A stretch of DNA of 34,376 bases, from NCBI GenBank assembly GCA_003170595.1, contig PMZA01000378.1, positions 7,283-41,658 of the forward strand. The letters are read 5' to 3'. The notes under the pieces are model-generated. The model did no database searches. It was not told the origin of the DNA and worked only from the letters and a program-made list of their open reading frames with translations. The position numbers were made by a program, and so were the translations under genes. The DNA is from Armatimonadota bacterium (GTDB taxonomy: Bacteria > Armatimonadota > Zipacnadia > Zipacnadales > FEN-943). Each line of letters begins with the position of its first letter. Position 1 is the stretch's first letter. Positions 633 through 27,590 of the stretch are shown piece by piece.

Positions 633-1355
633 TTACGCTTGCCTCCAACGAACCGGCCGCCGCATGGCCGTGACCACCATCCCCAGCGCGACGCGGAACA
701 TGATGAAGACGGCCTTGGGCGTGTTCACCGACGACACCCCGCCCTGCCGCACCCGCATCTTCACGCCCACTTCCTTGATGCGGAAGCCGTGCTTGTTCAG
801 CCACACGATGGCCTCGGGCTCGGGGAAGAAGGTCGGGTAGTGCTGCGAGAGGAAGGCCAGCGTCTTGCGGTTGCAGGCGAGGAAGCCGGAGGTCACGTCG
901 TGGAGCTTGAGGCCCGTGATCGTGTTGGCGAGTCCGGCGAAGAGGTCGATGCCCATACGCCGAAAGAATGTCGGCTTCATGCCGCCCTCCTCATCCGCCA
1001 GGCGCGAGCCGAAGACGAAGTCGGCCTCACCCGCGAGCACCGGCGCGAGAACCTTCGGCGCTTCCGAGGGTGGATGCTGACCATCGCCATCGAGGCGGAC
1101 GAGGTAGTCGACGCCCGCTTCCAGCGCGGCCATGAGACCCGTCTGCACCGCGCCGCCGATGCCGAGATTCACCGGAAGACGGAGAACGTGCGCACCGCTT
1201 GCGCGCGCGACGTCGGAGGTGGCATCCATCGAGCCGTCATCCATGACGAAGACCAGCGCGTCGGGGTAGACCTCTCGCACCTCGGCGAGGACGGCGGCGA
1301 TGCTCTCTTCTTCATTGTAGGCCGGGATGATCACGGCCATCTTGCCTGAAAACAC
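633..1355 (-). CDS. family 2 glycosyltransferase (dolichyl-phosphate mannose synthase-like)
   Basis: MAVIIPAYNEEESIAAVLAEV, VFVMDDGSMDAT, LVRLDGDGQHPP are GT2/GT-A motifs. Real start may be ATG at 1340 rather than GTG at 1355. Confidence 0.9.
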   Translation of the reverse strand: MFSGKMAVIIPAYNEEESIAAVLAEVREVYPDALVFVMDDGSMDATSDVARASGAHVLRLPVNLGIGGAVQTGLMAALEAGVDYLVRLDGDGQHPPSEAPKVLAPVLAGEADFVFGSRLADEEGGMKPTFFRRMGIDLFAGLANTITGLKLHDVTSGFLACNRKTLAFLSQHYPTFFPEPEAIVWLNKHGFRIKEVGVKMRVRQGGVSSVNTPKAVFIMFRVALGMVVTAMRRPVRWRQA

Positions 1356-1360
1356 TATAG
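1341..1360 (+). repeat. solitary iteron-like motif CTTGCCTGAAAACACTATAG
   Basis: 20-nt exact match (opposite strand) to 26804-26823; 17-nt shared core with 3347-3366 except one base. Overlaps the start region of the GT2 gene. Confidence 0.8.
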
Positions 1361-1633: not shown

Positions 1634-3100
1634 CTAGTCCCCCACCTCGCTCTCCCCCATCGCCTTCTGGAAGGCTTCGCTGTGCCGGCGCGAGATGATC
1701 TTGACCATCTCCTCATTGTAGATCGCGCGATACACCGCGTGGGTTTCCCAGCCGCTCAGGAAGCGATGATTCTCGCCGATGAACTTCTGGATCTCGGTAT
1801 CCACTGCCTTCTGCTCCTCGAGCGGCAACTCCTTCAGCACTCCCTGCGCGGCCTCGCGTTGACGAGCGCGCAGGTCACGATCAGCCGCCTCTCGCGCCGC
1901 GTGCGAATCCTGCATCGTCGCGAGGGACGCCGGTTTGCGCGATACAGGTTCCTTCGCGAGATACGCCGCCGGCGGTCCCCACGATTCACGGATCGATTGC
2001 ACCAGCGCCGCCGCCGGTTCCCTCGCCGATCGGAAGGGCAGGTAGGTTATCTGCGCCCAGATGTCTCGCAGCGGATAGACCTGGATCAGCTCCGCCGCCG
2101 TCTTCATCGTCACGCCCTCGCTGAGCAGCCCTTCGAGAGCGGCTGTCGCCTGGGGTGCGAGAGCGGGACGACGATTCTCCTGCTTGCCGGCGAAGTAGTA
2201 CGTCGCTTTCTCGCTGCCCGATTGCGCCTGACCATACTCGACCTGCGTCAGGAATCCGCGGGCGATGAGTTCCTTGTGCGCGGGCTCGAGCTTGCGCTTG
2301 AGTTGCGACGGATAGTACGCCCGGCACATGCCCAGGTGCTCGAAGGCGAGCTTCTCGAGGGTGATTTGAAACGTCGGGCGATTCGGATACCGCTTCTTGT
2401 CGAGATACCGGTACAGCCGCCGCGCGATGGGGCTGCGCAGCGAGAAGTACAGGTCGGTATCGAGCATCTTGATGTTGCCCGCGCGGAAGCTGGTGAAGAT
2501 GACCTCGTTCCACGTGATGCAACTGAAGGGCACGTTGTCTTCCCTAGCGCCCCTCATCCGACGCTCATCGGCGAGGACGTAGTTGTCGATGATACCGAAG
2601 GCGACCGTCGTGTATCGTCGCGCGGCGTTATCCCAGAAGGCGTTCTCGGCCTTGATGCTCACCGTCTTCAGGCGATCGAGGGCGGCTTCGAGGCGGGTGT
2701 AGCTGCGTCCATCGGGCTTCCATCCCATCCGCGAGATGAGGTCGTATCGTGTTATCGGCACAGTCCTGCTCTCGAAACCCTGCTCCTTCGTGACCTCCAT
2801 CAGCGCGATGTAGACCTCCTCATCCGTCGCCGTGGGGAGGCCGTACTTCTCGGTGCCCGTGACTATCCATCGCCGCGCGACCATCTTGCCTTCGCCGGTG
2901 CGAATCTCGTCGTAGAACTCCAGCGTCGTCACATCATTCGGCGCGAGCTTCGAGAGTACCGCGAAGGGAAACTCCGAGAGATTCATCTCATCCCGGCCAA
3001 GGCGAATCGGCTGGAGCAGCGGATCGCTTTCGGGAGGAGGCTCGGAGATCGCATCCATTTCGTCGATCAGTAGCAGCGAATCATCGTGCATCTGCATCAC
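1634..3100 (-). CDS. RPA-type plasmid replication initiator protein (replication initiator protein A family)
   Basis: 488 aa; RRDEMNLSEFPFAVLS, GLPTATDEEVYIALMEV, TRYDLISRMGWKPDGRSYTRLEAALDRL, SSFTWNEV-like CITWNEVIFTSFRAGNIKMLDTDLYFSL, RRLYRYLDKKRY, KRKLEPAHKELIARGFL match the RPA initiator family as I know it. Start GTG 3100 or ATG 3097/3088. Confidence 0.9.
   Translation of the reverse strand: MMQMHDDSLLLIDEMDAISEPPPESDPLLQPIRLGRDEMNLSEFPFAVLSKLAPNDVTTLEFYDEIRTGEGKMVARRWIVTGTEKYGLPTATDEEVYIALMEVTKEQGFESRTVPITRYDLISRMGWKPDGRSYTRLEAALDRLKTVSIKAENAFWDNAARRYTTVAFGIIDNYVLADERRMRGAREDNVPFSCITWNEVIFTSFRAGNIKMLDTDLYFSLRSPIARRLYRYLDKKRYPNRPTFQITLEKLAFEHLGMCRAYYPSQLKRKLEPAHKELIARGFLTQVEYGQAQSGSEKATYYFAGKQENRRPALAPQATAALEGLLSEGVTMKTAAELIQVYPLRDIWAQITYLPFRSAREPAAALVQSIRESWGPPAAYLAKEPVSRKPASLATMQDSHAAREAADRDLRARQREAAQGVLKELPLEEQKAVDTEIQKFIGENHRFLSGWETHAVYRAIYNEEMVKIISRRHSEAFQKAMGESEVGD
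2744..2763 (-). repeat. iteron-like motif inside the initiator gene (CTGTGCCGATAACACGATAC)
   Basis: 15/20 match to CTTGACCGAAAACACGATAG (25098-25117); includes CCGATAACACGATA. Confidence 0.5.
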
Positions 3101-3139
3101 TCCGGCAGGGGCGGCTACGATGTAAGCTGCGGTGGTTTC

Positions 3140-3174
3140 CTATCGTGCTATCAGACAAGGCCCGGTTTGTCTGA
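3140..3174. promoter_or_regulatory. putative initiator-gene operator: inverted iteron plus half-iteron
   Basis: Reverse complement of 3140-3159 is CTTGTCTGATAGCACGATAG (17/20 to CTTGCCTGAAAACACGATAG); TCAGACAA (3151-3158) and TTGTCTGA (3167-3174) form a perfect 8-bp inverted repeat with 8-nt spacer, 40-75 bp upstream of the rep start. Confidence 0.7.
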
Positions 3175-3181
3175 AGAGTAA

Positions 3182-3205
3182 GAGAATCCAAGGTATAAGA
3201 TTCTC
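3182..3205. repeat. inverted repeat GAGAATC-N10-GATTCTC
   Basis: Perfect 7-bp arms between the operator and the iterons, within a locally AT-richer stretch (3170-3230). Confidence 0.6.
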
Positions 3206-3249
3206 GTAAGGCAGGAAGGTAAGGGTTTCGGGCGCTGAACGCAAGTGCT

Positions 3250-3366
3250 TTTGCCCGAGAACACGATGATCCTGTCCCGGAATCACGTAAGCCCTTGCCC
3301 GGTGACACGATGATTCCTTCCCGAGAGCACATAAGCGGGGGAGGCGCTTGCCTGAAAACACGATTC
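3250..3366 (+). repeat. iteron array / putative oriV
   Basis: 20-mers at 3250 (TTTGCCCGAGAACACGATGA), 3272 (CTGTCCCGGAATCACGTAAG), 3294 (CTTGCCCGGTGACACGATGA), 3316 (CCTTCCCGAGAGCACATAAG) at exact 22-bp pitch; fifth copy 3347 (CTTGCCTGAAAACACGATTC) 31 bp further. Confidence 0.85.
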
Positions 3367-3447
3367 GCGTGAGGGAGACCGTTCGGGGGAGAACTGACGG
3401 GGATAAGACGCCAGGAAATCGGTGCGATGAAAGTGCGGGCGACGCCG

Positions 3448-3891
3448 CTAGGTAATCCCACCAGGTAGCTCCTGTTCGCCAATCAACCGCAGGGCGCGGC
3501 TCACAATCTCGGAGCGCTGGGGCTTCTTGCCCGTGCGCACGAACTCGCTGGTCTGGATCTGATCGATGGTGACGATATCGTCGGCGTAGAGGTAGAAGGT
3601 CGCCTTGATGCGCTGAGGATCGGCAGGCGGCGGTTCAGGCTCAACACGAGGCGCCCTCGGGGCGGAACGAACTGGACGAGTGGCGCCGGCGGCGGTCGCG
3701 CGCGGCGCGGGTGCGTGAACCGGCTCAGGCGCGGGCTCGGGGGCGGGAAGGGCCGGATCGGTGCCGACCTCCTGAGCGTGATCGCTCTGCTGCGCGGAGT
3801 CGCGCTCCTCTTCCCTATCGGTGATCACCCGGTCGAAGAAGTCGCCGTAGGTGCGGCGAGCGGTGTCGGGCGTCAGTTGAGCGCGGCGCAA
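3448..3891 (-). CDS. ribbon-helix-helix DNA-binding protein, likely ParA partner/copy-control protein
   Basis: Pro/Ala-rich middle, C-terminal KATFYLYADDIVTIDQIQTSEFVRTGKKPQRSEIVSRALRLIGEQE resembling an RHH fold (strand, helix, SEIVSRAL helix). TTG start with AGGAGG upstream; starts 7 bp after the ParA stop. Confidence 0.7.
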   Translation of the reverse strand: MRRAQLTPDTARRTYGDFFDRVITDREEERDSAQQSDHAQEVGTDPALPAPEPAPEPVHAPAPRATAAGATRPVRSAPRAPRVEPEPPPADPQRIKATFYLYADDIVTIDQIQTSEFVRTGKKPQRSEIVSRALRLIGEQELPGGIT

Positions 3892-3895
3892 AATG

Positions 3896-4702
3896 TCATG
3901 CCTCCTGAAGTTCTGGTGCAGCGACTTGCTCGAGTTCGGTCGCCAGTTGGCGGTAGGCCTCGGCGACGGGATGGTTCGGGGCGTACTGGATGATGGTCAC
4001 TCCCGCGACGCCGGCCTCGCGCAGGCGGACGGTGCGTCCGACCGCGGCGCCGAAGATGCGGATGTGATCGCCGAGCACCTGCCTCACGCTCTCGACGACT
4101 TCCTGCGCGTGGAGCGTGCGCGGCTCGACCATCGTGAAGAAGAGTCCTGCGACCGCGAGGCTCGGATTCAGCTTCGCCTGGACCTTGTGCACGGTCTTCA
4201 GGAGGAGGCCAAGGCCGCGCATCGGAAGGAACTCGGCCTGCAGAGGGATGAGCACAAAATCGGCGGCGGCGAGGGCAGCGATGGTCAGCATGCCGAGGCT
4301 GGGGAGGCAGTCGATGAGGACGTAGTCGTAGGGCTCCGGGAGCTGGTCGAGGAGTTCGCGGAGGATCGTCTCGCCGCTGAGGGCGGTGAGGAGATCGGGC
4401 TCAGCCGCCGAGAGGGAGATGTTGGACGGGATGAGGTCGCAGCCAATCTGAGTCTCGAGGATGGTGTCTGGGAGGCGCGGCGAAGGCTCATCGCGGAGGG
4501 TCGCCGAAAGCGCGGCGTAGATGCTCGGATCGATCTGATCGGGGTCAAAACCGAGAGAGGTCGTCAAAGAGGCCTGGGGGTCAAAGTCGACGAGCAAAAC
4601 TCGACGGCCTTTCTCGGCGAGGGCGGCGCCCAGAGTCGCGCAGGAAGTAGTCTTTCCCACTCCGCCCTTCTGGTTGGCGAGTACGATGATAGGCATCGGC
4701 AT
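3896..4702 (-). CDS. parA: ParA-family partition ATPase
   Basis: MPMPIIVLANQKGGVGKTTSCATLGAALAEKGRRVLLVDFDPQASLT deviant Walker A; DYVLIDCLPSLGMLTIAAL; IPLQAEFLPMRGL. The ORF track extends to 5134 but the ATG at 4702 begins the conserved N-terminus. Confidence 0.95.
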   Translation of the reverse strand: MPMPIIVLANQKGGVGKTTSCATLGAALAEKGRRVLLVDFDPQASLTTSLGFDPDQIDPSIYAALSATLRDEPSPRLPDTILETQIGCDLIPSNISLSAAEPDLLTALSGETILRELLDQLPEPYDYVLIDCLPSLGMLTIAALAAADFVLIPLQAEFLPMRGLGLLLKTVHKVQAKLNPSLAVAGLFFTMVEPRTLHAQEVVESVRQVLGDHIRIFGAAVGRTVRLREAGVAGVTIIQYAPNHPVAEAYRQLATELEQVAAPELQEA

Positions 4703-4775
4703 GAAGCCTCGGCTGTTGCTGCGATCGAGAACAAGGATAACCACTAAGCAGCTTCCTGTCAAGACGCTCGCCTGT

Positions 4776-4839
4776 CCAGACAGCCAGACAGTAAAACATC
4801 TTGACCGCCAGACGCACGAACGCTCAGACAGCCAGACAG
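4776..4839 (+). repeat. phased octamer repeats, putative partition centromere/parA operator
   Basis: CCAGACAG at 4776, 4784 and 4832, TCAGACAG at 4824, CCAGACGC at 4808, all in one 8-bp register; 15-mer CAGACAGCCAGACAG exactly repeated at 4777 and 4825; inverted CTGTCTGG at 4976. Confidence 0.65.
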
Positions 4840-4902
4840 CGTTGGGACTTCGGTTGCTGGGGAGCGCGGGGTTTATCCAGCGCCGCGGTATTGAGCCAGG
4901 TC

Positions 4903-4937
4903 GCGGCGGGGCGTAAAGCCCCGCCCTACAGCAAGCC
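4903..4937. repeat. GTAG-anchored GC palindrome (GCGGCGGGGCGTAAAGCCCCGCCCTACAGCAAGCC)
   Basis: Near-identical to 32803-32837 and, on the opposite strand, to 8644-8680 and 14793-14824. Confidence 0.85.
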
Positions 4938-4992
4938 ATCCCGACAGCAAAACACGTAGACGTCTGAACAGGATGCTGTCTGGCTGGCTGGA

Positions 4993-7245
4993 CTACCTCC
5001 CGGCCAGGAGTCGCACGCACCAGTCTGCCACATGCCGCCGGGCGTGATCGTAGTCCTCGAGGCTCCATCCGTTCGGCAAGTTGAGCGAGCCGCCGATAGT
5101 GACCTTGCCGTCCTTGGTGGTCACCTTGTCCCACGCCGGAGTCTCTCGCACACTCGAGTTGTACTTGATGCTCGCGAGGATCTCTTTGAGGTCGCTCTCA
5201 GCACGAGACGCAAGCTCCGCCGATCGCCCGCCCTTCTTGCGCGCGGCGACGATGAGATCCCGCAGCAGCGCGATGTATCGATAGTCGTCGATGCCTTCGC
5301 GCATGCCTTCCCAGCCGATCGATGGCCCGCCGACGTGCCCATGCCCCGGCGGATAGTAGGCGACCTCATCGCCGAGCGGTCCGTCCTGGTCGTCGTAGGG
5401 ATCGCCAGCGACGGACTGGTACGCCCAGTTGAAGCAGCCGTCGATGCCCGCCGCTTCCTGGAACCAGCCCGCCACGTACCGGTCGACCACGGGCCGGTAG
5501 AACTCGACGTCGCAGTTGTAGATGAGCACCGTCTTGCCGTCCTTATGCGCCGAGGCGACGACCTCCGGCGGAGGCAGCGAGCCGTTGAAGTTCCACACGT
5601 CGCACAGCGGCCCGGCTACGTGGCGGAAGTAGTCGTCATCGGGACCGTCCTGCTCGGTCACGATGCCCGGCGCGAGCCGGCGAAGGATGTCGAGGAGGAC
5701 GCGATTGCGCTCCCCTGCGTCCGCTCCGCCCCAGGCGGGTTCATCGACCGGCTGGACGATGATCTTCGGCCCCTTCTGCTTCGCGGCGTAGTCCTCGACG
5801 TACTTCCAGATCCCGGCATAGGCCTCGGCGAAGCGCGGCTGATTGATCGGCCCGGCGGCGATATCCTGGGGCGTGTCGGCAAGCTGGAGCAGGGGCGCCG
5901 GGAAGCCGAGGTCGTGGTATAGCTGCATGAAGGTCTCATACCGCCCCTGCCCGGCGGGGAGGAAGTCCACGCGCTTGGCCTCGACATTGTTCTGCGCCGG
6001 GTCCCAGCCGAAGCAGAGGCCGACCGATGTCATGCCGTGGGCGCGCATGTCACGGAGGTGCGCCTCGAGCTTGACGAGGTCCTCGCCTTCCTCGAAGGCC
6101 GTCGGGCCCGTGTAGTAGACGCCCCACAGCTTGTCCTTCACCTCGGGCAGGGCGAAGGGGTAGATGTGGAGGGACACCGGAATCTGCACCGGCGCGCCCG
6201 ACGCGGTGGGGGAGAGGGGCTTCTCGGCGACGGTGACGATCGCCTTGTAGTCACCCGGCTTCGCATCCGGAGGGACATGGACCGTGAGCCAGAATCGCCC
6301 GACCCGCCCGGCCGCGAGGTCGACGCCCTCCTTCGGCTGCGCCTCAAGCAGAACGGGCATCCCCGCGATGTAGCGCGTGTCAGGATAGGTCCAGCGCTTG
6401 TCGAGGGCACGTACGACGCGCACGTCGACGGCGCTCGCGGCGATCTTGGCCTGGCCGCTGACGCGGTCGACATTCCCCGGCCCGGTGAAGTCGGAGATCA
6501 TCGCGGTGAGGCCATGCAAATCGCGTCGTGCCGCAATACAGATCGTCAGCGGCTCATACTCGCCCCGCGCGGCGGCGATGGACGGCTTGGGCGCAGGCTC
6601 ATCCTCGGCCGGCCAGTCGTCGGCGAAGACGTGCTGCATCCACGGCCGCTCGAAGGCGATCATCGCCGGCCCGGTGGGGGAGGGGAGGCCCGTGGGCACG
6701 CGGTCGGGCACATGGGTCACGGCCAGGAAGCTGCCCTCGAGGGTGACCAGGCGGAAGTGGTCGAAGAATAGCTCGACGTCGCCGCGGGGCTTGCTGATGT
6801 AGATGTAGACGCGCTGGAGGTGGGCCAGGTCGAGGTCGTACTTGAGCGAGCGTAGCCAGATCTTGATATGCGTCGTGGCCCCGGGCGCCAGGCTCTCGCC
6901 GCCGAAGACGCGCTTGCCGCTGAGGTCGTCAACGCGCCAGGCGAGCGGCGTGGGTTGGGCGGCGGGAGAGAAGACGTCGAAGGCCAGCGCGCCCGCGGAG
7001 GTCTGGTCGGGGGCGTCGAAGTTGAGGCTGAAGCCGGGCCACGAGTCGGCCTCAGAGCCCGCGAAGACGACGTGGAGGGAATGATCGCCATCGGTTGCGT
7101 GCTCGGCGACGCGCTCGAAAACTTTGAGGCCGGAGCCCTGGGCGAGCTGGGCGACGTCCGACGGGTCCTCGAAGGACAGGGGCAGGCGCGTGGACACCGT
7201 GGCGAGGGAAAGCACCAGCATCGCCGCGTTCGCGGTCGCAAGCAT
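4993..7245 (-). CDS. secreted DUF4091-type glycoside hydrolase-like protein
   Basis: N-terminal signal-like segment; C-terminal NFNGSLPPPEVV...GCFNWAYQSVAGDPYDDQDGPLGDEVAYYPPGHGHVGGPSIGWEGMREGIDDYRYIALL, characteristic of DUF4091 C-termini. Confidence 0.8.
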   Translation of the reverse strand: MLATANAAMLVLSLATVSTRLPLSFEDPSDVAQLAQGSGLKVFERVAEHATDGDHSLHVVFAGSEADSWPGFSLNFDAPDQTSAGALAFDVFSPAAQPTPLAWRVDDLSGKRVFGGESLAPGATTHIKIWLRSLKYDLDLAHLQRVYIYISKPRGDVELFFDHFRLVTLEGSFLAVTHVPDRVPTGLPSPTGPAMIAFERPWMQHVFADDWPAEDEPAPKPSIAAARGEYEPLTICIAARRDLHGLTAMISDFTGPGNVDRVSGQAKIAASAVDVRVVRALDKRWTYPDTRYIAGMPVLLEAQPKEGVDLAAGRVGRFWLTVHVPPDAKPGDYKAIVTVAEKPLSPTASGAPVQIPVSLHIYPFALPEVKDKLWGVYYTGPTAFEEGEDLVKLEAHLRDMRAHGMTSVGLCFGWDPAQNNVEAKRVDFLPAGQGRYETFMQLYHDLGFPAPLLQLADTPQDIAAGPINQPRFAEAYAGIWKYVEDYAAKQKGPKIIVQPVDEPAWGGADAGERNRVLLDILRRLAPGIVTEQDGPDDDYFRHVAGPLCDVWNFNGSLPPPEVVASAHKDGKTVLIYNCDVEFYRPVVDRYVAGWFQEAAGIDGCFNWAYQSVAGDPYDDQDGPLGDEVAYYPPGHGHVGGPSIGWEGMREGIDDYRYIALLRDLIVAARKKGGRSAELASRAESDLKEILASIKYNSSVRETPAWDKVTTKDGKVTIGGSLNLPNGWSLEDYDHARRHVADWCVRLLAGR

Positions 7246-8775: not shown

Positions 8776-10059
8776 TCATGTCTTGCGCTGGCGGATCTTC
8801 GCGGCGGGGAAGAGGATGTTGTTGAGGATGAGGCGATAGCCCGGGCTGTTCTTGTGCAGGCGCAGGTCGGTCGGCGGCTCACCGACGGTATGCGCATAGT
8901 CCTCCGGATCGTGGCCGCCGAGGAACGTGAAGGTCCCCTTGCCGTAGTCGCCGTGGATGTACTTCACCTTGTTCTGCCCCGGGAAGTCGCCCAGCACAAT
9001 CACCGTATCGCGCAAAGCCGACCGCCGGAAGGCCGAGGTCTGCCCGAGGTAGTCGAGCACGCGGTCGGTGTGGTCCTGCACGAGCATCGAGCAGATGGGG
9101 TCCTGCTTGGCCGAAAACACGAATAGGTCGAAGGTCTCGCCGCGCGAGGCCGTGCTTGGATTCGGCGGCTGGACGTCGATGTCGGCGATCTCCTCGACGA
9201 GGGGATTCGGAATCGTTTTGAAGTCGCGGAAGGCGAAGGTCGGGCGGAAGTCGAGCTTCTCGTTGGCGTGAGGATCGGTCGGCGTGCCGTCTATCTGAGC
9301 CGGGACGATGTCGATGCCACGCGCCGCGAGGGCCACGTCTAGGCTGTCGCAGGCCGAGCACATGGCGAAGAGGAATCCCCCGCCGGAGACCCACTTCGCG
9401 ATCTCGGTCGCGACCGCGGCCTTCTCCGTCTGCACGCTCGGATAGCCGAGGTCGGACGCGGCCTGCCGCGAGACGAGGACCTGTTGCTGGTACCAGGGCT
9501 CGGCGCCGAAATGGGACCAGAACTTGCCGAACTGGCCGGTGAAATCCTCGTGGTGGAGATGGAGCCAGTCGATGTTCTTAAGGCCGCCGGCGAGAATCTC
9601 GCGATCCCACAGCTTCTGGAAGGGCACCTGCGCGTAGGTGAGGGCGAGGGTTACGGCGTCATCCCACGGGCGCTTGTCGGGTGGGATATAGACGCCGATC
9701 CGCGCCGCGCGGGTGAGGGTGATGCGCTCCATGTTCTCGGCGCGAATCTGAGCGAAGATGGCGCCGGCCTGGGCCTCGGCGATGGGGGAGAAGGCGACCC
9801 CAAGCTCATCCGCCCGCGCGCGGACGTCGGGCTTGTCGGGGAGGAGGAAGGAGCCGCCGCGATAGTTGAGCAGCCAGTCGCACTGGTACCCGCGCGGGGC
9901 GTCGAGGCACCAGTAGGTGAGCCCGTAGGCGCGCAGATGGTCGGTCTGAGCGCGGTCCATCGGGATAAGCAGATATGCGGCCGAAGAGACGGTCGGGAGT
10001 AGCATGAACAGGGCGGCAACAACCAGTGGCAGCCACTGAGAAGCGCGAGTGGTCATCAA
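8776..10059 (-). CDS. secreted protein resembling Bacteroidota proteins labelled 'asparagine synthetase B' (function unknown)
   Basis: AAYLLIPMDRAQTDHLRAYGLTYWCLDAPRGYQCDWLLNYRGGSFLLP and PEDYAHTVGEPPTDLRLHKNSPGYRLILNNILFPAA; no AsnB glutaminase N-terminus or PP-loop seen. Confidence 0.6.
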   Translation of the reverse strand: MMTTRASQWLPLVVAALFMLLPTVSSAAYLLIPMDRAQTDHLRAYGLTYWCLDAPRGYQCDWLLNYRGGSFLLPDKPDVRARADELGVAFSPIAEAQAGAIFAQIRAENMERITLTRAARIGVYIPPDKRPWDDAVTLALTYAQVPFQKLWDREILAGGLKNIDWLHLHHEDFTGQFGKFWSHFGAEPWYQQQVLVSRQAASDLGYPSVQTEKAAVATEIAKWVSGGGFLFAMCSACDSLDVALAARGIDIVPAQIDGTPTDPHANEKLDFRPTFAFRDFKTIPNPLVEEIADIDVQPPNPSTASRGETFDLFVFSAKQDPICSMLVQDHTDRVLDYLGQTSAFRRSALRDTVIVLGDFPGQNKVKYIHGDYGKGTFTFLGGHDPEDYAHTVGEPPTDLRLHKNSPGYRLILNNILFPAAKIRQRKT

Positions 10060-10123: not shown

Positions 10124-10275
10124 GTCATCCTTGCGATGCGTAGCATCGCCGAGGCGACGGATTGCGTCGCCGACGAAGGATCTCCTTTTGGCTTGTTGGA
10201 GCGCACAGCGATAGTCAGCCGTCATCGACAAAAGGAGATCCTTCGGTCGGCACAGATCGCCTTCCTCAGGATGAC
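10124..10275. repeat. dispersed palindromic REP/MITE-like element, copy B
   Basis: GTCATCCTTGCGATGC...GACGAAGGATCTCCTTTT...AAAAGGAGATCCTTCGGTCGGC...CCTCAGGATGAC. Confidence 0.85.
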
Positions 10276-10359
10276 AACCTTGGAACTCCCGGACGGTCTG
10301 GACCAGGGGGAGGACGCACACGGCCGCCCGGCCCATCTTTCGTCCTTCCGCCTTTGGTT

Positions 10360-10478
10360 GTCATCCTGAGCCTGAGCTTGTCGAAGGCGAAGGATCCCCG
10401 CACCAACTGCCCGGCCCAATCTACGATGGCGGTCCGGGGGATCCTCCGTCAGGCCCAGGGTGCCTTCCTCAGGATGAC
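10360..10478. repeat. dispersed palindromic REP/MITE-like element, copy C
   Basis: GTCATCCTGAGCCTGAG...GCGAAGGATCCCC...GGGGGATCCTCCG...CCTCAGGATGAC. Confidence 0.8.
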
Positions 10479-11498: not shown

Positions 11499-14400
11499 AT
11501 GATGAGACGAGGACTGCTAGCTGCTCTTCTATTGGTACTGCTCGGCTGCGCGGTCCAGGCGGCGCAGGCACCTCCGCCATCTCTCGACCAGAGCTTCCGC
11601 ACGCCGCCGGACAGCGCGCGGATGTGGGTTTACTGGTTCTGGCTGAACAGCAACATCACGAAGATCGGCATCACCTCCGACCTCGAGGCCATGAAGCGCG
11701 TCGGCATCGGCGGTGTGCTCATCATGGAAGTCGACCAGGGCGCGCCGGTCGGCCCGGTGCCCTTCGCGAGTCCCAAGTGGCACGAACTCTTCACCTACAT
11801 GATCTCCGAGGCTCATCGCCTCGGCATCGAAGTCAACATGAACGATGACGCCGGCTGGAACGGCAGCGGCGGGCCGTGGATCAAGCCCGAGCAGGCGATG
11901 CAGAAGGTCGTCTCCACCGAGACCGTGGTCCCGGGCGGCGCCCACTTCGACGCCGTCCTCGCCCAGCCGCCGACGGTGGCCGGCTTCTATCGCGACATCG
12001 CCGTCTATGCCTACCCGACGCCGGCGGACTATCACCTGCCGGATTGGCAGCAGAAGTGCGGACTGGACCGCGGTGAATTCGGCTCGCCGGCGACCTACCC
12101 GACGATCCCCGCCGAGCAGACCATCCCGCGCGGGAAGATGATCGACCTGACCGCGAAGATGGCGGCCGACGGCCACCTCACCTGGGACGCGCCCGAGGGG
12201 CAGTGGACGGTCCTGCGCGTGGGCTACACCTGCACCGGCGCGCAGAATGGCCCGTCCCCCGACTCCGGTCGCGGCCTCGAATGCGACAAGCTCAGCCCCG
12301 AGGGCATCGAGGCCCAGTTCAACGGCTTTGTCAGCAAGTTCATCGACGACGCAGGCCCCTACGCCGGGCAGGGCAAGACGTTGGTCCGCACGCACATCGA
12401 TAGCTGGGAGAACGGGTCGCAGAACTGGACGGCCCGCTTCCGTGAGGAGTTTCAGCGCCGCCGCGGCTATGATCCGCTGCCCTACCTGCCCGCGATGACC
12501 GGGCGCGTCGTCGATAGCGTCGAGGTCACCGAGCGCTTCTTGTACGACGTGCGCCAGACGATCTCGGACCTGATCTGCGACAACTACGCCGGCCACCTGC
12601 GCGAGCTTGCGAACAAGCGCGGCGTGGACCTCTCCATCGAAGCCTACGGCGGCACGACGGTGGACGACATGGCCTATGGCGGTCGCGCCGGTGAGCCGAT
12701 GGGCGAGTTCTGGTGGACGGGCTACTACGACAGCACGCTCCAGGAGATGTCCGCGTCGGCGCACGTCTACGGCAAGAACATCTGCGGGGCGGAGTCCTTC
12801 ACCTCGGACAACAACGAGAAGTGGCTAGCCTGGCCCGGGAACATCAAGAGCATGGGCGACCGCGCCTTCTGCGCGGGCATCAACCGCTTCGTCATACACC
12901 GCTACGCGCTGCAGCCGTGGAAGGACCGCAAGCCCGGCATGTCGATGGGGCCGTGGGGTCTCCACTACGAGCGCACCCAGACCTGGTGGGAGCAGTCGAA
13001 GCCGTGGCATGAGTATGTGGCCCGTTGCCAGTACATGCTGAGGCTGGGCCTGCCTGTGGTCGACGTCCTCTGCCTCGAACCTGAGGGCGCCTCGCGCAGC
13101 TACAACCCGCCGCTGGGCTTCAAGCGCGCCGGCTACAAGGCCGATGGCTGCCCGACTGATGCGCTGCTGACGAGGGCAAAGGTGAGGGACGGGCGCATCG
13201 TTTTTCCGGATGGCATGAGCTACCGGATGCTGCTCCTGCCGGGCGCCGAGACGATGACGCCCGCGCTGCTGACGAAGCTCGACGAGATGGCCCGCGAAGG
13301 CGCCACCATCGTCGGCCCGCCGCCCACCAAGGCGCCGGGGCTCACCGACTACCCGCAGTGTGACGCCGAGGTCTCCGACCTGGCCGACAGGCTGTGGGGA
13401 TCGGGCAAGATCGTCCGCGACAAGGACCCCGTGAAGGTCCTCGCGTCGGCCGGAGTCTCGCCTGACTTCACCTCGGACCACGTCCTCGAGTTCATCCACC
13501 GCCGCGTCGGCGATACCGACGTGTACTTCGTCGCCAACAGCTTCAGCCACGCGGTCAACGCGACCTGCGCCTTCCGCGTGGGCGACCGGGCGCCGGAGCT
13601 GTGGAACCCGGAGACCGGGGCGATGGTGCAGCCGGCGGCCTACCAGGTCAGCGGCGGCGTCACGAAGATGCCGCTGCGCTTCGAGGCGGCCCAGTCCGTC
13701 TTCGTCGTCTTCCGCCTGCGGCCGAGTGAGGGCCGCCCGCCCAAGGCCGACCCGATCGTGCGCATCACTCGCGATGGCCAAGACCTCTGGCCCGCGACCG
13801 CCATCCAGGCGCCGATCACCATCCTCAAGGCGACCTGGGGTCCCCCCGGCGATCAGGCACGGACCAAGGACGTCACCGATCAGGTCCGCCGCAAGGTCGA
13901 GGGCGGAGCGTCCTCCTTCGTCGTCGCCGAACTTGCCGCCGAGGGCGATCCGGCCTTCGGCATCGTCAAGACCCTCACCGTCGAGTACGAGGTGAAGGGC
14001 AAGACCCTCACTACCAGCGCCACCGACCCCGAGGTCATCGTGTTCGAGGTTACTGATGAGGCACCGGCAGGGGCGCTGCATATCGAGCGCCGCGCGGATG
14101 GACAGATCGTCGTCCAGGGAGCCGAGCCCGGTCAGTATGCGCTGCGCACGGCGGCCGGCAAGACGTTGGCGTTCAAGGCCTCGGCGACACCCTCCGCGGG
14201 AGTGGTCGGGCCGTGGGACCTGCGCTTCCCGCCGAACTGGGGCGCTCCGCCGCCGGTGAAGCTCGACAACCTGATATCGTGGAGCGACCATCCCGATGCC
14301 GGCGTGAAGTACTTCTCCGGCACCGCGACGTATACCAAGACGATACAGATCCCGAGCACCATGCTCGTCCCCGGGCGGCATCTCCTTCTCGACCTCGGGC

Positions 14401-18839: not shown

Positions 18840-19784
18840 GTGCTGAAGTTGAAGGCTTACCTTCCCACGACACCAGAGAATTCGTCGATGCCGCTACGTC
18901 GCGTCCGGGGATCCCTGCTCCCAGCCCTCGCCCTTCTCGCGGTGGTACTGCTCCTCGCCGGTTGTCAGGGCGTGCCCAACCCCAACGCCGACCAGTCCTG
19001 GCTGGGCTCCACATCCGCGGCGGCTCCCTCGCCCTCTTCCTGGTCGGCGAACGTGAGCAGCGCTCTTCCTCTCGCGACCGTGGGCAGCCGCGGCTCTTCC
19101 TTGAAGCACTTCGAGCAGGCCACCTACAACCTCGTCGAGAGCCTGCAGGAGCATGAGGCCGAGCTTGCCTGGCGGCTGGACTACGCCCGCTATGTGCGCT
19201 CCGACCGCTCGCAGGCGTCCAAGCGTCTCGCGCTCACCTTCGACGACGGCCCCCATCCCGGCTACACGATGCGGATCATCGAGCTTCTGCGGAAGCTCAA
19301 CGTGAAGGCCACCTTCTTCCTGGTCGGCCGGCAGGCGCAGATGTACCCCGACCTGGTCAAGGCTCTCGTCGCCGACGGCCACAACCTCGGCAACCATACC
19401 TACCGCCATAGCCACATGACCGATATCTCCAAGCGCGACCAGGAGAGGGAGATCACCACCTGCGGGGAAGTCATCCGCGACATCACCGGCAAGGCACCCC
19501 ACCTCTTCCGCCCGCCGGGGGGGCACTACAACGTCCAGGTCGGCCGCCTCGTCGCCGACCTCGGCTATCGTGTGATCCTCTGGACCGATAACTCCGGGGA
19601 CTACAGCAGCCCCGGCCAGGATGTCATCGAGCGCCGCATCCTCCGCCATACCGAAGACGGCGACATCATCCTCTTCCACGACGGGATCGATCAGACCATC
19701 GAGGTCCTGCCGGAGATCATCAACACCCTCCGCGGCAAGGGCTATCGCTTCGTCACGATCGATGAGATGATCAACTACCACTGA
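18840..19784 (+). CDS. NodB-type polysaccharide deacetylase, lipoprotein
   Basis: KRLALTFDDGPHPGYTMRIIELLRKLNVKATFFLVG, GHNLGNHTYRHSHM, LFRPPGGHYN; lipobox LLLAGC. Start may be 18888. Confidence 0.93.
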   Translation: MLKLKAYLPTTPENSSMPLRRVRGSLLPALALLAVVLLLAGCQGVPNPNADQSWLGSTSAAAPSPSSWSANVSSALPLATVGSRGSSLKHFEQATYNLVESLQEHEAELAWRLDYARYVRSDRSQASKRLALTFDDGPHPGYTMRIIELLRKLNVKATFFLVGRQAQMYPDLVKALVADGHNLGNHTYRHSHMTDISKRDQEREITTCGEVIRDITGKAPHLFRPPGGHYNVQVGRLVADLGYRVILWTDNSGDYSSPGQDVIERRILRHTEDGDIILFHDGIDQTIEVLPEIINTLRGKGYRFVTIDEMINYH

Positions 19785-23426: not shown

Positions 23427-26400
23427 CTAAGGCGCGGGCGCGAGCAAGACCACGTCGCCCGCCGCGGTCGCCGCGAGCAGTCGGCCGCTCGCATCCGTCA
23501 GGAGGGCCGTTACCTGCGCCCCTAGCGCGGCACACAGGACGGGGCTACCAACTCTGTCCAGCAGGTACACCGATCCGTCCATGCAGCCCACCGCGATGCC
23601 TCCCCCGGTGGCCGCCATCGTCCACGGCGCCGAGGGCAGGCGTCGCGACCAACGACGTGCGCCGTCGGGGCCGAAGGCCGTGACTATGCCCTCCTCGGTC
23701 GCGGCCACGACCTCCCTCTTGCCGTCGCCATCGAAATCGACGGCCACCACGCCGCGCATGTGGCGGCTGGGGTAGGGGAAGGACGGGCCGAAGCTCTGGG
23801 CCCACAGCGGCCGCCCGTCCACCGCATAGGCGCGCACGAAGTTCCACGTGCCGTTGGTGTCGACGACGACCTCAGGCGAGCCATCGTGGTCGGTGACGAT
23901 CAGGTCCTGCGAGTTCTGCGTCGCCCATCCGGGCACGTCGGTCATGCCGGAGGGAAGGCCGTTGTAGCTGCCGTCGAGCGCCCAGCTGCTGCCGTCAATG
24001 CGCTGCACGTCGTTGGTGCCGTTGGGCATCTTCGTGGACAGGAGCTTGCGCGCGCCGCCGGGGGTGGTCAGGAGCGCCATCCGCCAGACGTTGCCCCAGA
24101 AGACCGGGAGGCGCTTAAGGAGCTGCCCCTGGGCGTCGACAACCTCGATGGTGCATGCGCTACCGATCATCGCCTGGGTGCCGTCGGCGGTAAGGTGGCC
24201 GGTGAGCAGGCCGCTGATGCCGGGGATCGCGTCCTTGAACCAGTACGTCTTGCCAGTAGCGCGGACGTCGTCGTGCATGACCGACTGGAAGGTCCAGGCG
24301 AGCTTGCCGGCGGGGTCGTAGGCGTAGACCTTGTCGTCCTTGCAGCCGAGGAGGAGCAGGTGTGCCTCGGGCCAGTAGGTCGTCGAGAGGATTTCGGCGG
24401 GGGCCTCGATGGGTGCGCCTGTGGTGCCGTCGGGTGCGATGGGATAGGCCTTGCGATCGGTCACGGCGTAACCGGGGATGAGCCACTTCACCGCGCCGTC
24501 GACGTGCGCTTTGGATACCTGCTTCCATGCCGGAGGCGAGGCGGCTTGCTGTTGCGCCAGGGCGACATCGGGGCGCTTGCCCATCGCGACCGCGGCCTCC
24601 AACGCCGGCCGGAGCGCCGCAAGAAGGCTTTGCGCCGGCTTGACGACCGTGAAGTGATGGCGGCCCTTGCCGAAGTGCATGGGGAGGATGCCGGCCTTGC
24701 CGGCCGCCAACTGAACCATGAGCACGGTCTCGGCGTCGGCCTCGACGTCCATCTCGCCCTTCGCCAGGTCCCAGCAGAGCGTCACCGGCCGCGAGCTTCG
24801 AAGGAGCGGGCCGCCGGCGCTGATCGCCGTCGCATCGGCCGCGTAGAGGATGTCCGGGGTGAGCAGAAGGGCCTCCGCATCACTCTGAACACCGCCCGCC
24901 GACAGGGGCCCAAAGGCCGCGATTGCCGGATCGGGCATGCGGAGGGCGACTGCGTTGTTGCCAAGCTCCGCGCAGTCGAGGTCGCCATCCTTCGGCTTGA
25001 TCCCAACGAGCGAGGCCACGCGCACCGGCTTGCCGGCCTTGAAATCGCCGCGAAGCGAGGTGATGCCAAGCCATCCCTGGGACGAGGTTGCAGCACCCTT
25101 GACCGAAAACACGATAGCGCCAGTCGCTCCATGCGCGGCGAAGGTGATCCTCCCATCGGGAGTCATGGTCGGCTCAGAGGCACACTCGTACTGCACCGAG
25201 ATGTCCGCGTCGGTCATGTCCTGGCGTGGCGTGAAGACGTCGGATACGACCGTCCATCGCCCGGCGGCATGCAGAATCCTCCGCCGCCACGAGCCGAAGA
25301 AGAAGTTGGGGACCTCCGCCTCGATGTGTGCCACCGGGCCGACGGCGTCGTGGCGCAGAAGCTCGGAGGCCATCGGCACCTGCGCCTCGACGAGCCCCGC
25401 CTGCCGCACGACGACCTGGTTGAGATAGCCGTGGAGGAGCAACTTGTCGCCGATACGCAATTCGAGGAGGGACAGGCAATGATAGGGATTCCGCGAGCCG
25501 CCGTAGAAGCCGTCGAGGAGGAGGTAGTCGTCCTTCGGCGTCAGGCCGCTGCGGTAGGAGGCGAACTGATAGCCCTTCGTCTCCGGGAAAGGCACGGCGA
25601 ACTGATCGCGTAGCTCTCGCTCGAGGGGCCGCACGAGGACCTTGCCGACGATCTCGGTCGGCGGCCGCTCGGCCACCGTCGGCCAGAAGGATTGGCCGAT
25701 TCGGAAGACGTTGGGGTCCATGTTCGTCATGTTGCGGTAGTAGGCGAAGCGGCCGTCATGGGTAAGGTAGGCGGCCTTGTTCGCGAAGGAGAGGGAGAGC
25801 TGCTGGAGATTCTCGCAGCCGGGTGTGCCGTCGAGGATGAGGTCGAAGCCGCGGAGGAGTATGTCGAGATTGCCGTTCTGTGCGCCGATGCGATCGCCAC
25901 TGATGATCATGTAGCTGAGCAGCGGCTCGAGGGCGGTCGTGTACCAGAAGAGATGGTCGAACTCGCCCTCGACGTAGAAGGTGCGCGCGAGGGATGAGAA
26001 GGATTGCCGGGCGGCCTCGAGGTTCTTCCGCCACACGGGGTCGGGGTAGTACTTGTCGAAGTAGCGGCTCAGGCAATAGAGGTTGAGGGCGGCGTACTGG
26101 TCGTGGCGCGTCCCGATGGTGCGGGTGAGGTCGCCATAGTAATGCCCCGCGTAGGCCCACTCGGCCTGCCAATGCTTGAGCTGTTCGGAGAAGGCCTGGG
26201 TGATGCGGAGGCGCTGATCGTCGGTGAAGAAGGGGCTCTGCTCGACCAGATTCCAGAGGAGAATCATGTAGTGGCCGTTGTAGTGGTACGGGCCGGAGAG
26301 GGGGTGATTCTTGTCCTCGATGCGCTCGCCGTCGACCTTCCATATGTGCGCGATGGCCTTCTCATCGGGGAAGGCGAGCCAGAGGAATTCGCGGAGGAAT

Positions 26401-27590
26401 CGCTCCTCGCCGGTCATGTAGTAGAGGGCGAGGCGGCGGCTCAGGCAGTTCCAGCCGAAGTAGCTCGACGGGCCATACATCATGCTCGCTTCCCAGGAGG
26501 GGACGGTGTCGGCGTCGTCGGGAATCTTGAGTCCCTCGCCGAGCTTGATCTTCGCCAGCCAGCGGAAGGTGAGCGACTTGCCCTTCGCGGATTCCGAGGC
26601 GAGGCGGGCGAATTCGGCGACGGCGAGGCGCAGGCCGGCGTCGTCGCTGGCGCCGACGAAGATCACGTTGCGGCCGTTGCCGAAGGGATCGTGGAGCGAG
26701 CGGATGACGTAGCCGCCCGGGCCGGGATACTTCTGATCGAGGTAGGTGTAGTGCAGATCGTAGAGCCGGGAGATGAAATCGTTCGTCGTCCGGCAGCCCA
26801 GGACTATAGTGTTTTCAGGCAAGGGGAGAGGGACGTCACGATCGTGGCGGATGGGGAGGGTCGCGCCGGTCAGCCTACGCACCGTCTCGACGATGTCTCT
26901 GGCGGCGGAGTCGAAGCGTCCATCGGCCGGGACGACGACTATCGCGGCGGGCTTGCCCCCGCTGACGATGGACGTCTCGAGGTGCAGGTCGCGCAGCTTC
27001 GTGATCGGCGGTGGGGGAAAGGCGGAGAGGTCGCCGGTCTTCATGCCGGCGATCAGGCTGGCGATGTCCGACAGGGCGATCACCTCGGCGTCATCGACCA
27101 ACGTGTCGCAGAGCGTGTCGGTGTGCGTGTAGAGGAAGACCTCGAAGCCCGTGGAGCCGGCGGGGACGGCCGCGCCGGTCGAGCACTGGGACCACTTCTC
27201 GGCGCCGGCGGAGAGGGGGATCTGGACGAGTTGCTGGCTCGGGAGAAAGCGTAGCTGGAGGAAACCGCCTGCGCCGCGGCCGCCCTGGGCCGCCCTGGCC
27301 CAGACGGAGGCCCTCAGATACTTTGCGTCGGGCGGGAGTGGGCCAACCTGGCTGACGCCGACCTCGGAGGCGGGGTCGTGGTCGGAGATCAGCAGCGACT
27401 GGCGGCCCGTGTGGGTGAGGGTGGAGGCGGAAAGGTGCGTCGAGGGCGAGGCGCCCGCATAGAGGTCCCAGGCGGCGGGGACGCCCTTGTCCGAGAAGGC
27501 GCCCTCGAAGCCGCCGTTGCGCAGGAGATTCGCGGGCTGGGCCGGCGGGGCGGTGAAGGCGCACGTTGCGATCAGGAAGAGGCTGAGCAA
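23427..27590 (-). CDS. large secreted multidomain protein: CBM-like N-terminus, alpha/alpha-toroid (lyase/hydrolase-like) core, C-terminal PQQ/FG-GAP-like beta-propeller
   Basis: 1387 aa with signal peptide; LLRNGGFEGAFSDKGVPAAWDLY (CBM-like), Trp/Tyr-rich helical core, then KDDKVYAYDPAGKLAWTFQS, VAVDFDGDGKREVVAATEEGIVTAFGPDGARRWSRRLP. Confidence 0.7.
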   Translation of the reverse strand: MLSLFLIATCAFTAPPAQPANLLRNGGFEGAFSDKGVPAAWDLYAGASPSTHLSASTLTHTGRQSLLISDHDPASEVGVSQVGPLPPDAKYLRASVWARAAQGGRGAGGFLQLRFLPSQQLVQIPLSAGAEKWSQCSTGAAVPAGSTGFEVFLYTHTDTLCDTLVDDAEVIALSDIASLIAGMKTGDLSAFPPPPITKLRDLHLETSIVSGGKPAAIVVVPADGRFDSAARDIVETVRRLTGATLPIRHDRDVPLPLPENTIVLGCRTTNDFISRLYDLHYTYLDQKYPGPGGYVIRSLHDPFGNGRNVIFVGASDDAGLRLAVAEFARLASESAKGKSLTFRWLAKIKLGEGLKIPDDADTVPSWEASMMYGPSSYFGWNCLSRRLALYYMTGEERFLREFLWLAFPDEKAIAHIWKVDGERIEDKNHPLSGPYHYNGHYMILLWNLVEQSPFFTDDQRLRITQAFSEQLKHWQAEWAYAGHYYGDLTRTIGTRHDQYAALNLYCLSRYFDKYYPDPVWRKNLEAARQSFSSLARTFYVEGEFDHLFWYTTALEPLLSYMIISGDRIGAQNGNLDILLRGFDLILDGTPGCENLQQLSLSFANKAAYLTHDGRFAYYRNMTNMDPNVFRIGQSFWPTVAERPPTEIVGKVLVRPLERELRDQFAVPFPETKGYQFASYRSGLTPKDDYLLLDGFYGGSRNPYHCLSLLELRIGDKLLLHGYLNQVVVRQAGLVEAQVPMASELLRHDAVGPVAHIEAEVPNFFFGSWRRRILHAAGRWTVVSDVFTPRQDMTDADISVQYECASEPTMTPDGRITFAAHGATGAIVFSVKGAATSSQGWLGITSLRGDFKAGKPVRVASLVGIKPKDGDLDCAELGNNAVALRMPDPAIAAFGPLSAGGVQSDAEALLLTPDILYAADATAISAGGPLLRSSRPVTLCWDLAKGEMDVEADAETVLMVQLAAGKAGILPMHFGKGRHHFTVVKPAQSLLAALRPALEAAVAMGKRPDVALAQQQAASPPAWKQVSKAHVDGAVKWLIPGYAVTDRKAYPIAPDGTTGAPIEAPAEILSTTYWPEAHLLLLGCKDDKVYAYDPAGKLAWTFQSVMHDDVRATGKTYWFKDAIPGISGLLTGHLTADGTQAMIGSACTIEVVDAQGQLLKRLPVFWGNVWRMALLTTPGGARKLLSTKMPNGTNDVQRIDGSSWALDGSYNGLPSGMTDVPGWATQNSQDLIVTDHDGSPEVVVDTNGTWNFVRAYAVDGRPLWAQSFGPSFPYPSRHMRGVVAVDFDGDGKREVVAATEEGIVTAFGPDGARRWSRRLPSAPWTMAATGGGIAVGCMDGSVYLLDRVGSPVLCAALGAQVTALLTDASGRLLAATAAGDVVLLAPAP
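25098..25117 (+). repeat. solitary iteron-like motif CTTGACCGAAAACACGATAG
   Basis: 18/20 to CTTGCCTGAAAACACGATAG; inside the 1387-aa CDS. Confidence 0.6.
26804..26823 (-). repeat. solitary iteron-like motif CTTGCCTGAAAACACTATAG
   Basis: Exact 20-nt match to 1341-1360; inside the 1387-aa CDS (codes LPENTIV). Confidence 0.8.

Follow-up and report, generated by a model that had tools for sequence, protein, structure and literature searches.

Phased repeats beside an RPA-type initiator gene form a probable iteron origin in an Armatimonadota genome

A group of phased direct repeats lies next to a replication initiator gene in the DNA presented here, raising the question of whether these repeats are the origin of an iteron-controlled replicon or serve another role. 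The window, the whole stretch of 34,376 nucleotides that was analysed, covers bases 7283-41658 of a 42,713-base contig (C44) from a 6.45-Mb metagenome-assembled genome of 553 contigs (G000) of an uncultured Armatimonadota bacterium. The initial annotation had proposed that the array is the oriV of an iteron-controlled replicon, and this is supported at the sequence level by the RPA family of the initiator, by the repeats of a sister genus and by a PWM built across the family. We consider it very likely that the array at 3250-3364 is where Rep binds within the oriV of an RPA-type iteron replicon.

The four copies previously described as beginning at 3250, 3272, 3294 and 3316 were recovered as 18-20-mers in 22-bp steps, and the offset fifth copy that had been placed at 3347 was also found, 31 bp beyond copy 4. 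All five lie on the minus strand, and the unit in the reading direction of rep is ATCGTGTTxTCGGGCAAG. Copies 1 (3250-3267, ATCGTGTTCTCGGGCAAA), 3 (3294-3311, ATCGTGTCACCGGGCAAG) and 5 (3347-3364, ATCGTGTTTTCAGGCAAG, the strongest in the array) match this unit at 15-17 of 18 positions, and copies 2 (3272-3289, TACGTGATTCCGGGACAG) and 4 (3316-3333, TATGTGCTCTCGGGAAGG) are degenerate with 11-12 of 18 matching. The four-copy tandem score of 71 at period 22 was the best in the whole window and was reached by none of 1000 dinucleotide shuffles of 3101-3447 (mean 48.6, maximum 63). The suggestion that the array doubles as 44-bp dimers also held, as 3251-3292 and 3295-3336 share 76% identity across 42 nt and this two-copy score (32/42) exceeded all 1000 dinucleotide shuffles. 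An automatic repeat counter (16-mers with >=12 matches) did not raise the window above its own shuffles and also missed the sister-genus locus L066; the window array was judged by the period-specific statistics and by the cross-family PWM.

These phased direct repeats adjoin rep (1634-3100, minus strand), which encodes a protein of 488 aa assigned to replication initiator protein A (RPA, PF10134) by Pfam, structural model and orthologue. The Pfam match spans residues 36-253 with 70 bits (cut-off 27, E 2.8e-19); similarity to TrfA (E 0.0012) and Rep3 was also detected, both below the Pfam cut-offs. The AlphaFold model, built from a 40-sequence alignment (pLDDT 84.5), has two winged-helix-like domains in tandem and a helical C-terminal part. 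Searching the PDB with the Rep sequence gave no match, and the only convincing PDB matches of the model were crystal structures of domains 2-3, the two central domains, of RctB from Vibrio cholerae (E 2.5e-8 to 1.2e-7, 12-14% identity). Together the RPA match and the tandem winged-helix model bear out the earlier assignment of an initiator to 1634-3100.

Relatives of Rep were sought in genome contigs, where a single-sequence scan found no relative and an alignment-based scan found 208. We compared 89 RPA loci from Armatimonadota, Planctomycetota, Deltaproteobacteria, Bdellovibrionales and other groups, and at 52 of them, complete circular plasmids included, a repeat array just upstream of rep exceeded all 20 shuffles. 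Of 221 spacings of 15-70 bp, 159 (72%) were multiples of ~11.15 bp as against 23% expected, the commonest being 22-23 (89), 32-34 (41) and 43-46 bp (21), and 22/23-, 33- and 44-bp phasing is the rule in the array-bearing loci. The cross-family PWM was built from 51 RPA loci, mostly of other phyla, with the window and the sister genus left out, and its consensus in the rep direction is roughly ATCGTGxTTCGAACTAAG. In a scan of all window positions with this PWM, 3142 (+) came first, 3345 (-) second and 3248 (-) fourth, which is an independent, sequence-based prediction of the window array.

The initial annotation would have been refuted by close homologues of rep that lack such repeats, and the closest homologue, 60% identical and from another genus of the same family (G002, contig C67, L056/L066; also labelled L005/L066), carries them in the same intergenic region. 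The repeats there are ATCGTGTTTTCGGTCAAC-type. Direct copies of the same 18-mer lie at 5456, 5522 and 5544, spaced by 66 and 22 bp, and two more, at 5373 and 5646, are inverted. The repeats are thus conserved together with the initiator, in the sister genus and at the 52 of 89 loci. At all 18 Zipacnadia-type RPA loci (41-56% identity) no array could be detected within 700 bp upstream of rep, which counts against the origin reading and makes the association of array and initiator common, not universal. Some loci of this type (L068-L085, L100), such as L079 and L080, have isolated or near-palindromic sites, for example CTTGTGTCGGCACACGAT, which might act as lone operators while the origin lies at another place.

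The top-scoring PWM site of the window, ATCGTGCTATCAGACAAG at 3142-3159 on the plus strand, is a single inverted iteron ~42 bp upstream of the rep start and a sixth copy that the initial annotation did not contain. An inverted copy stands at the equivalent place in the sister genus (L066 5646-5663, rep start 5712), ~50 bp before rep. From its sequence and position the inverted iteron at 3142-3159 is probably the autoregulatory operator of rep. Between the array and rep, the segment at 3141-3230 has 42-46% GC as against ~65% across the window and is a candidate unwinding element. No DnaA box with 0-1 mismatch was found at 3000-3600, a second point against the origin reading, and GC skew was uninformative at the scale of the window. 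If the locus works like the iteron plasmids that have been studied, Rep monomers would occupy the iterons along the same side of the helix, as the 22-bp and 31-bp steps would allow, and the A+T-richer segment at 3141-3230 would open for loading of the host replisome. Rep bound to the inverted copy would probably repress rep.

A partition module, also absent from the initial annotation, lies on the side of the array away from rep, where two minus-strand genes 4 bp apart form one operon. The gene at 3896-4705 is parA, encoding a Walker-type partition ATPase (AAA_31; Pfam E 1.4e-53) that is 67% identical in the sister genus. The gene at 3448-3891 encodes a small protein of 147 aa that had no match in Pfam or NCBIfam and whose C-terminal 50 residues are nearly identical to the sister-genus protein. 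Its model has a disordered middle and a C-terminal part with a KATFYLY strand followed by helix-helix (pLDDT 72-81 locally, mean only 61), and this low-confidence fold is consistent with a ribbon-helix-helix (RHH) domain. Sequence pattern and model suggest that the product is probably a ParG-like centromere-binding protein. Upstream of parA, plus-strand AGACAG/ACAG boxes at 4762-4839 are a candidate parS/parH-type centromere and operator; the 4 ACAG boxes all keep a single 8-bp phase (0 of 2000 shuffles), as do 6 of 6 AGAC. In the sister genus 13 of 13 ACAG boxes share one 8-bp phase over 212 bp (0 of 2000 shuffles). A second, inverted group of CCAGACAG boxes (CTGTCTGGCTGGCTGGAC) lies at 4974-4993 on the minus strand and is 94% complementary to 4774-4791. 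We also observed an imperfect inverted repeat with 20-nt arms (75%) at 4868-4921, between the two CCAGACAG box groups. With respect to the ParFGH type (type Ib), a ParA without N-terminal extension and phased boxes were found and an RHH domain is only suggested. Together, these two proteins and the phased boxes resemble a ParG/parH-like partition module, and with the boxes at 4762-4839 and 4974-4993 the proteins would make up the partition system of the replicon.

The position of the array between the partition operon and rep could also mean that it is a centromere (parS) bound by a partition protein, as has been claimed for the direct repeats beside parAB on Deinococcus chromosome II and megaplasmid. 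In Deinococcus radiodurans, ParB binds iterons that lie upstream of parAB, and such repeats next to parAB have been reported in both origin and partition roles, with ori-like and parS-like functions (PMC7671480). Here the motif tracks Rep, and on pPL17-1 and pEP7_04 the arrays lie beside rep with parA elsewhere on the plasmid. The separate boxes upstream of parA, strictly 8-bp-phased here and in the sister genus, suit an RHH protein better, which argues that the 22-bp array belongs to Rep and not to the partition protein. We therefore regard a parS role of the array as very improbable.

We then considered the kind of DNA molecule on which this probable Rep-binding array resides. End comparison of the 42.7 kb contig showed no overlap, which also weighs against the origin reading, and an integrated or decayed replicon is possible and compatible with such ends. 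The array could then be a mere operator for rep or the partition operon in a chromosomally integrated, non-replicating remnant; the contig is not circular, the genes surrounding the array are ordinary metabolic and cell-surface genes, and the Zipacnadia rep genes suggest that rep can be retained when no array is beside it. Against this, Rep, the RHH-like protein and ParA are all intact, with 51-67% conservation between the genera, and five phased direct copies with a single inverted copy are, in iteron systems, the layout of an origin and not of an operator. A remnant of this kind is accordingly improbable in our judgement, and the oriV of an iteron replicon, which would be a plasmid-like, extrachromosomal molecule, is the reading we retain. 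A chromosomal origin as the main reading was rejected on the ground of a separate, full DnaA gene on another contig of the source genome, so the RPA Rep would not be the sole chromosomal initiator. Viral contigs gave no matches, making a phage origin unlikely.

The source genome has two further RPA genes, on contigs C422 (L054, rep 2532-4082) and C324 (L055, rep 139-1209). The C422 gene has its own, different array of AATACCGTTAxTCCGCTCC in steps of 23 and 33, with parA nearby, and two or three RPA replicons, each with its own iterons, could coexist in the source cell. Other repeats were seen in the window. The stretches at 1440-1600 and 10160-10400, both intergenic, are similar (translations CHPEE..., DEGSPFG, LRMTT) and seem to be copies of a repeat element dispersed in the source genome, and the ORF at 18840-19784 contains a tandemly duplicated 27-bp unit near its start (19034-19088, TRF score 75).

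The PWM scan also returned four full-strength single iterons outside the array interval, up to ~23 kb away, which the initial annotation did not include. The first (ATAGTGTTTTCAGGCAAG, 1341-1358, minus strand) lies directly before the ATG (ATGGCCGTG...) of a glycosyltransferase-2 gene downstream of rep, the second (TTCGTGTTTTCGGCCAAG, 9106-9123, minus strand) inside the ORF at 8776-10059, and the third (ATCGTGTTTTCGGTCAAG, 25098-25115, minus strand) inside the ORF at 23427-27590, where the fourth (ATAGTGTTTTCAGGCAAG, 26806-26823, plus strand) is antisense. The cross-family PWM placed them (1339, 9104, 25096 and 26806) at ranks 3, 5, 6 and 7, with the first unrelated site scoring far lower than they did, at 10.8. 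A second PWM, trained on the window origin only with the family matrix as prior, scored the four sites at 21.3-22.8. The 18-mer ATCGTGTTTTCGGGCAAG with <=2 mismatches occurs 10 times in the genome, six times on C44 (two in the array). In the sister genus, matches with <=3 mismatches fell on C67 (the array and 597-614), on C979 (five) and at only three places elsewhere in ~4.4 Mb. Two window genes have orthologues on C979 (53% and 55%), and so this contig may belong to the same replicon as C67. The site at the glycosyltransferase gene start is kept between the genera (window 1341 and C67:597-614), and that at 26806, in the large gene, stands at the same codons in both (C979:31272), a correspondence that a conserved peptide may explain.

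Several single sites (on C44, on C979 and at window 3142) have a longer form, CTAT[CAT]GTG..., where the array has TCATCGTG or GAATCGTG; the two kinds of iteron may form slightly different classes. An iteron-like site, ATCGTGTTTTGAGGCAAG, was seen on contig C303 of the source genome (L166, 5441-5458) just past a Mrp-type ATPase gene, and C303 could be part of the same replicon as C44. Eight complete or largely covered Planctomycetota RPA plasmids scanned with their own motifs had essentially no dispersed iterons except on pISOP01, the hits being one weak match on pSINAC01 and, on pISOP01, a pair and a match next to rep; dispersed iterons are therefore not a general RPA trait. The pair on this Isosphaera plasmid (L180) consists of two identical iteron-like copies, TTCGATCGTCCGGGGAGGAA, at 11602 and 11774, 172 bp apart and far from rep.

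The dispersed single iterons hint at an additional level of control over copy number or genes. Spread over tens of kb, before the gene downstream of rep and between and within genes, such replicon-specific iterons might titrate Rep or bridge it off the origin and possibly repress neighbouring genes, which would be a copy control like that of Vibrio chromosome II in a different phylum and with a structurally RctB-like initiator. We put this forward tentatively, as a possibility somewhat short of an even chance, with Rep binding at the dispersed sites presumed from their sequence. The sites might instead be codon coincidences, for example GTG TTT TCG for Val-Phe-Ser, an explanation that concerns the dispersed control only. 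Two of the four are in frame as [IF]VFS[VA]K, a site at C303:4674 is the P-loop of an Mrp-type gene, the 26806 site and its counterpart share the conserved peptide ENTI, and the counting 18-mer was picked after the first PWM scan, with both matrices independent of it. However, synonymous-codon shuffling of the window gave a mean of 0.118 matches and never more than 2 in 1500 runs as against 4 observed outside the array, and the other 6.41 Mb of the genome hold 4 matches as against 4 in the 42 kb of C44. Furthermore, the best score of the origin-only PWM in 2 Mb of random sequence was 16.5, and the sister-genus sites C979:21328, 27445, 27637 and 30336 appear intergenic. We consider codon coincidence rather unlikely.

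The origin itself is ordinary for the RPA family, and what is added is the family-wide motif and phasing, the inverted copy as a putative operator, the candidate centromere with its 8-bp phasing, and the dispersed iterons. With a predicted motif and a rule of phasing for the recognition sites of RPA initiators from several phyla, origins would become findable in metagenome contigs, and the motif supplies Rep-DNA pairs for testing. If Rep does bind the dispersed iterons, initiator titration by external iterons would not be special to Vibrio. None of the open-access papers that were searched mentions Armatimonadetes, plasmid and iteron together, and the maintenance of extra replicons in Armatimonadota thus appears little described.

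The closest known systems are the RPA plasmids of Planctomycetota (Isosphaeraceae and Gemmataceae), among them pPALBO1, pOJF2_1, pSINAC01, pPL62-1, pPL17-1 and pEP7_04, whose initiators are homologous to the window Rep (30-38% identity); several such plasmids have been described (PMC5352709). Like the window, they have a phased array of the family motif just upstream of rep in the same orientation, and ParA is often encoded close by, together with a similarly sized small protein; two complete circular ones have ParA with a 148-154-aa hypothetical protein. They differ in the letters of the iterons (CGATTAACCGGACATA, ACCGTCCTTCAGGGCAGG) and in the placement of the par genes. The iteron plasmids RK2, R6K and F (TrfA, pi and RepE) share a winged-helix initiator and an operator near rep, and iterons of this type are 17-22 bp long with helical phasing (PMC4980987); the window differs in its sub-cut-off TrfA and Rep3 scores and in having no recognisable DnaA box. 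The ParF-ParG-parH system of TP228 (type Ib) shares a ParA without N-terminal extension followed by a small RHH-like protein, and short, repeated boxes upstream of parA. The small protein of the window is longer than ParG, its RHH assignment comes from a low-confidence model and sequence pattern, and the window boxes are ACAG/AGACAG. In TP228, parH is upstream of parFG and the RHH protein ParG binds repeats upstream of parF (PMC5389482). For V. cholerae chromosome II (RctB/ori2), five iterons in a 74-kb span ~40 kb from the origin inhibit replication and titration has been proposed (PMC3937223), and RctB domains 2-3 are themselves similar to pi and RepE (PMC6090056). The window Rep, only 12-14% identical to RctB, is likened by fold to domains 2-3 only and is not classed as an RctB-type chromid initiator, and the external sites of the window are closer and single. 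The features that our reading of the window would share with chromosome II are iterons, autoregulation and extra iterons outside the origin.
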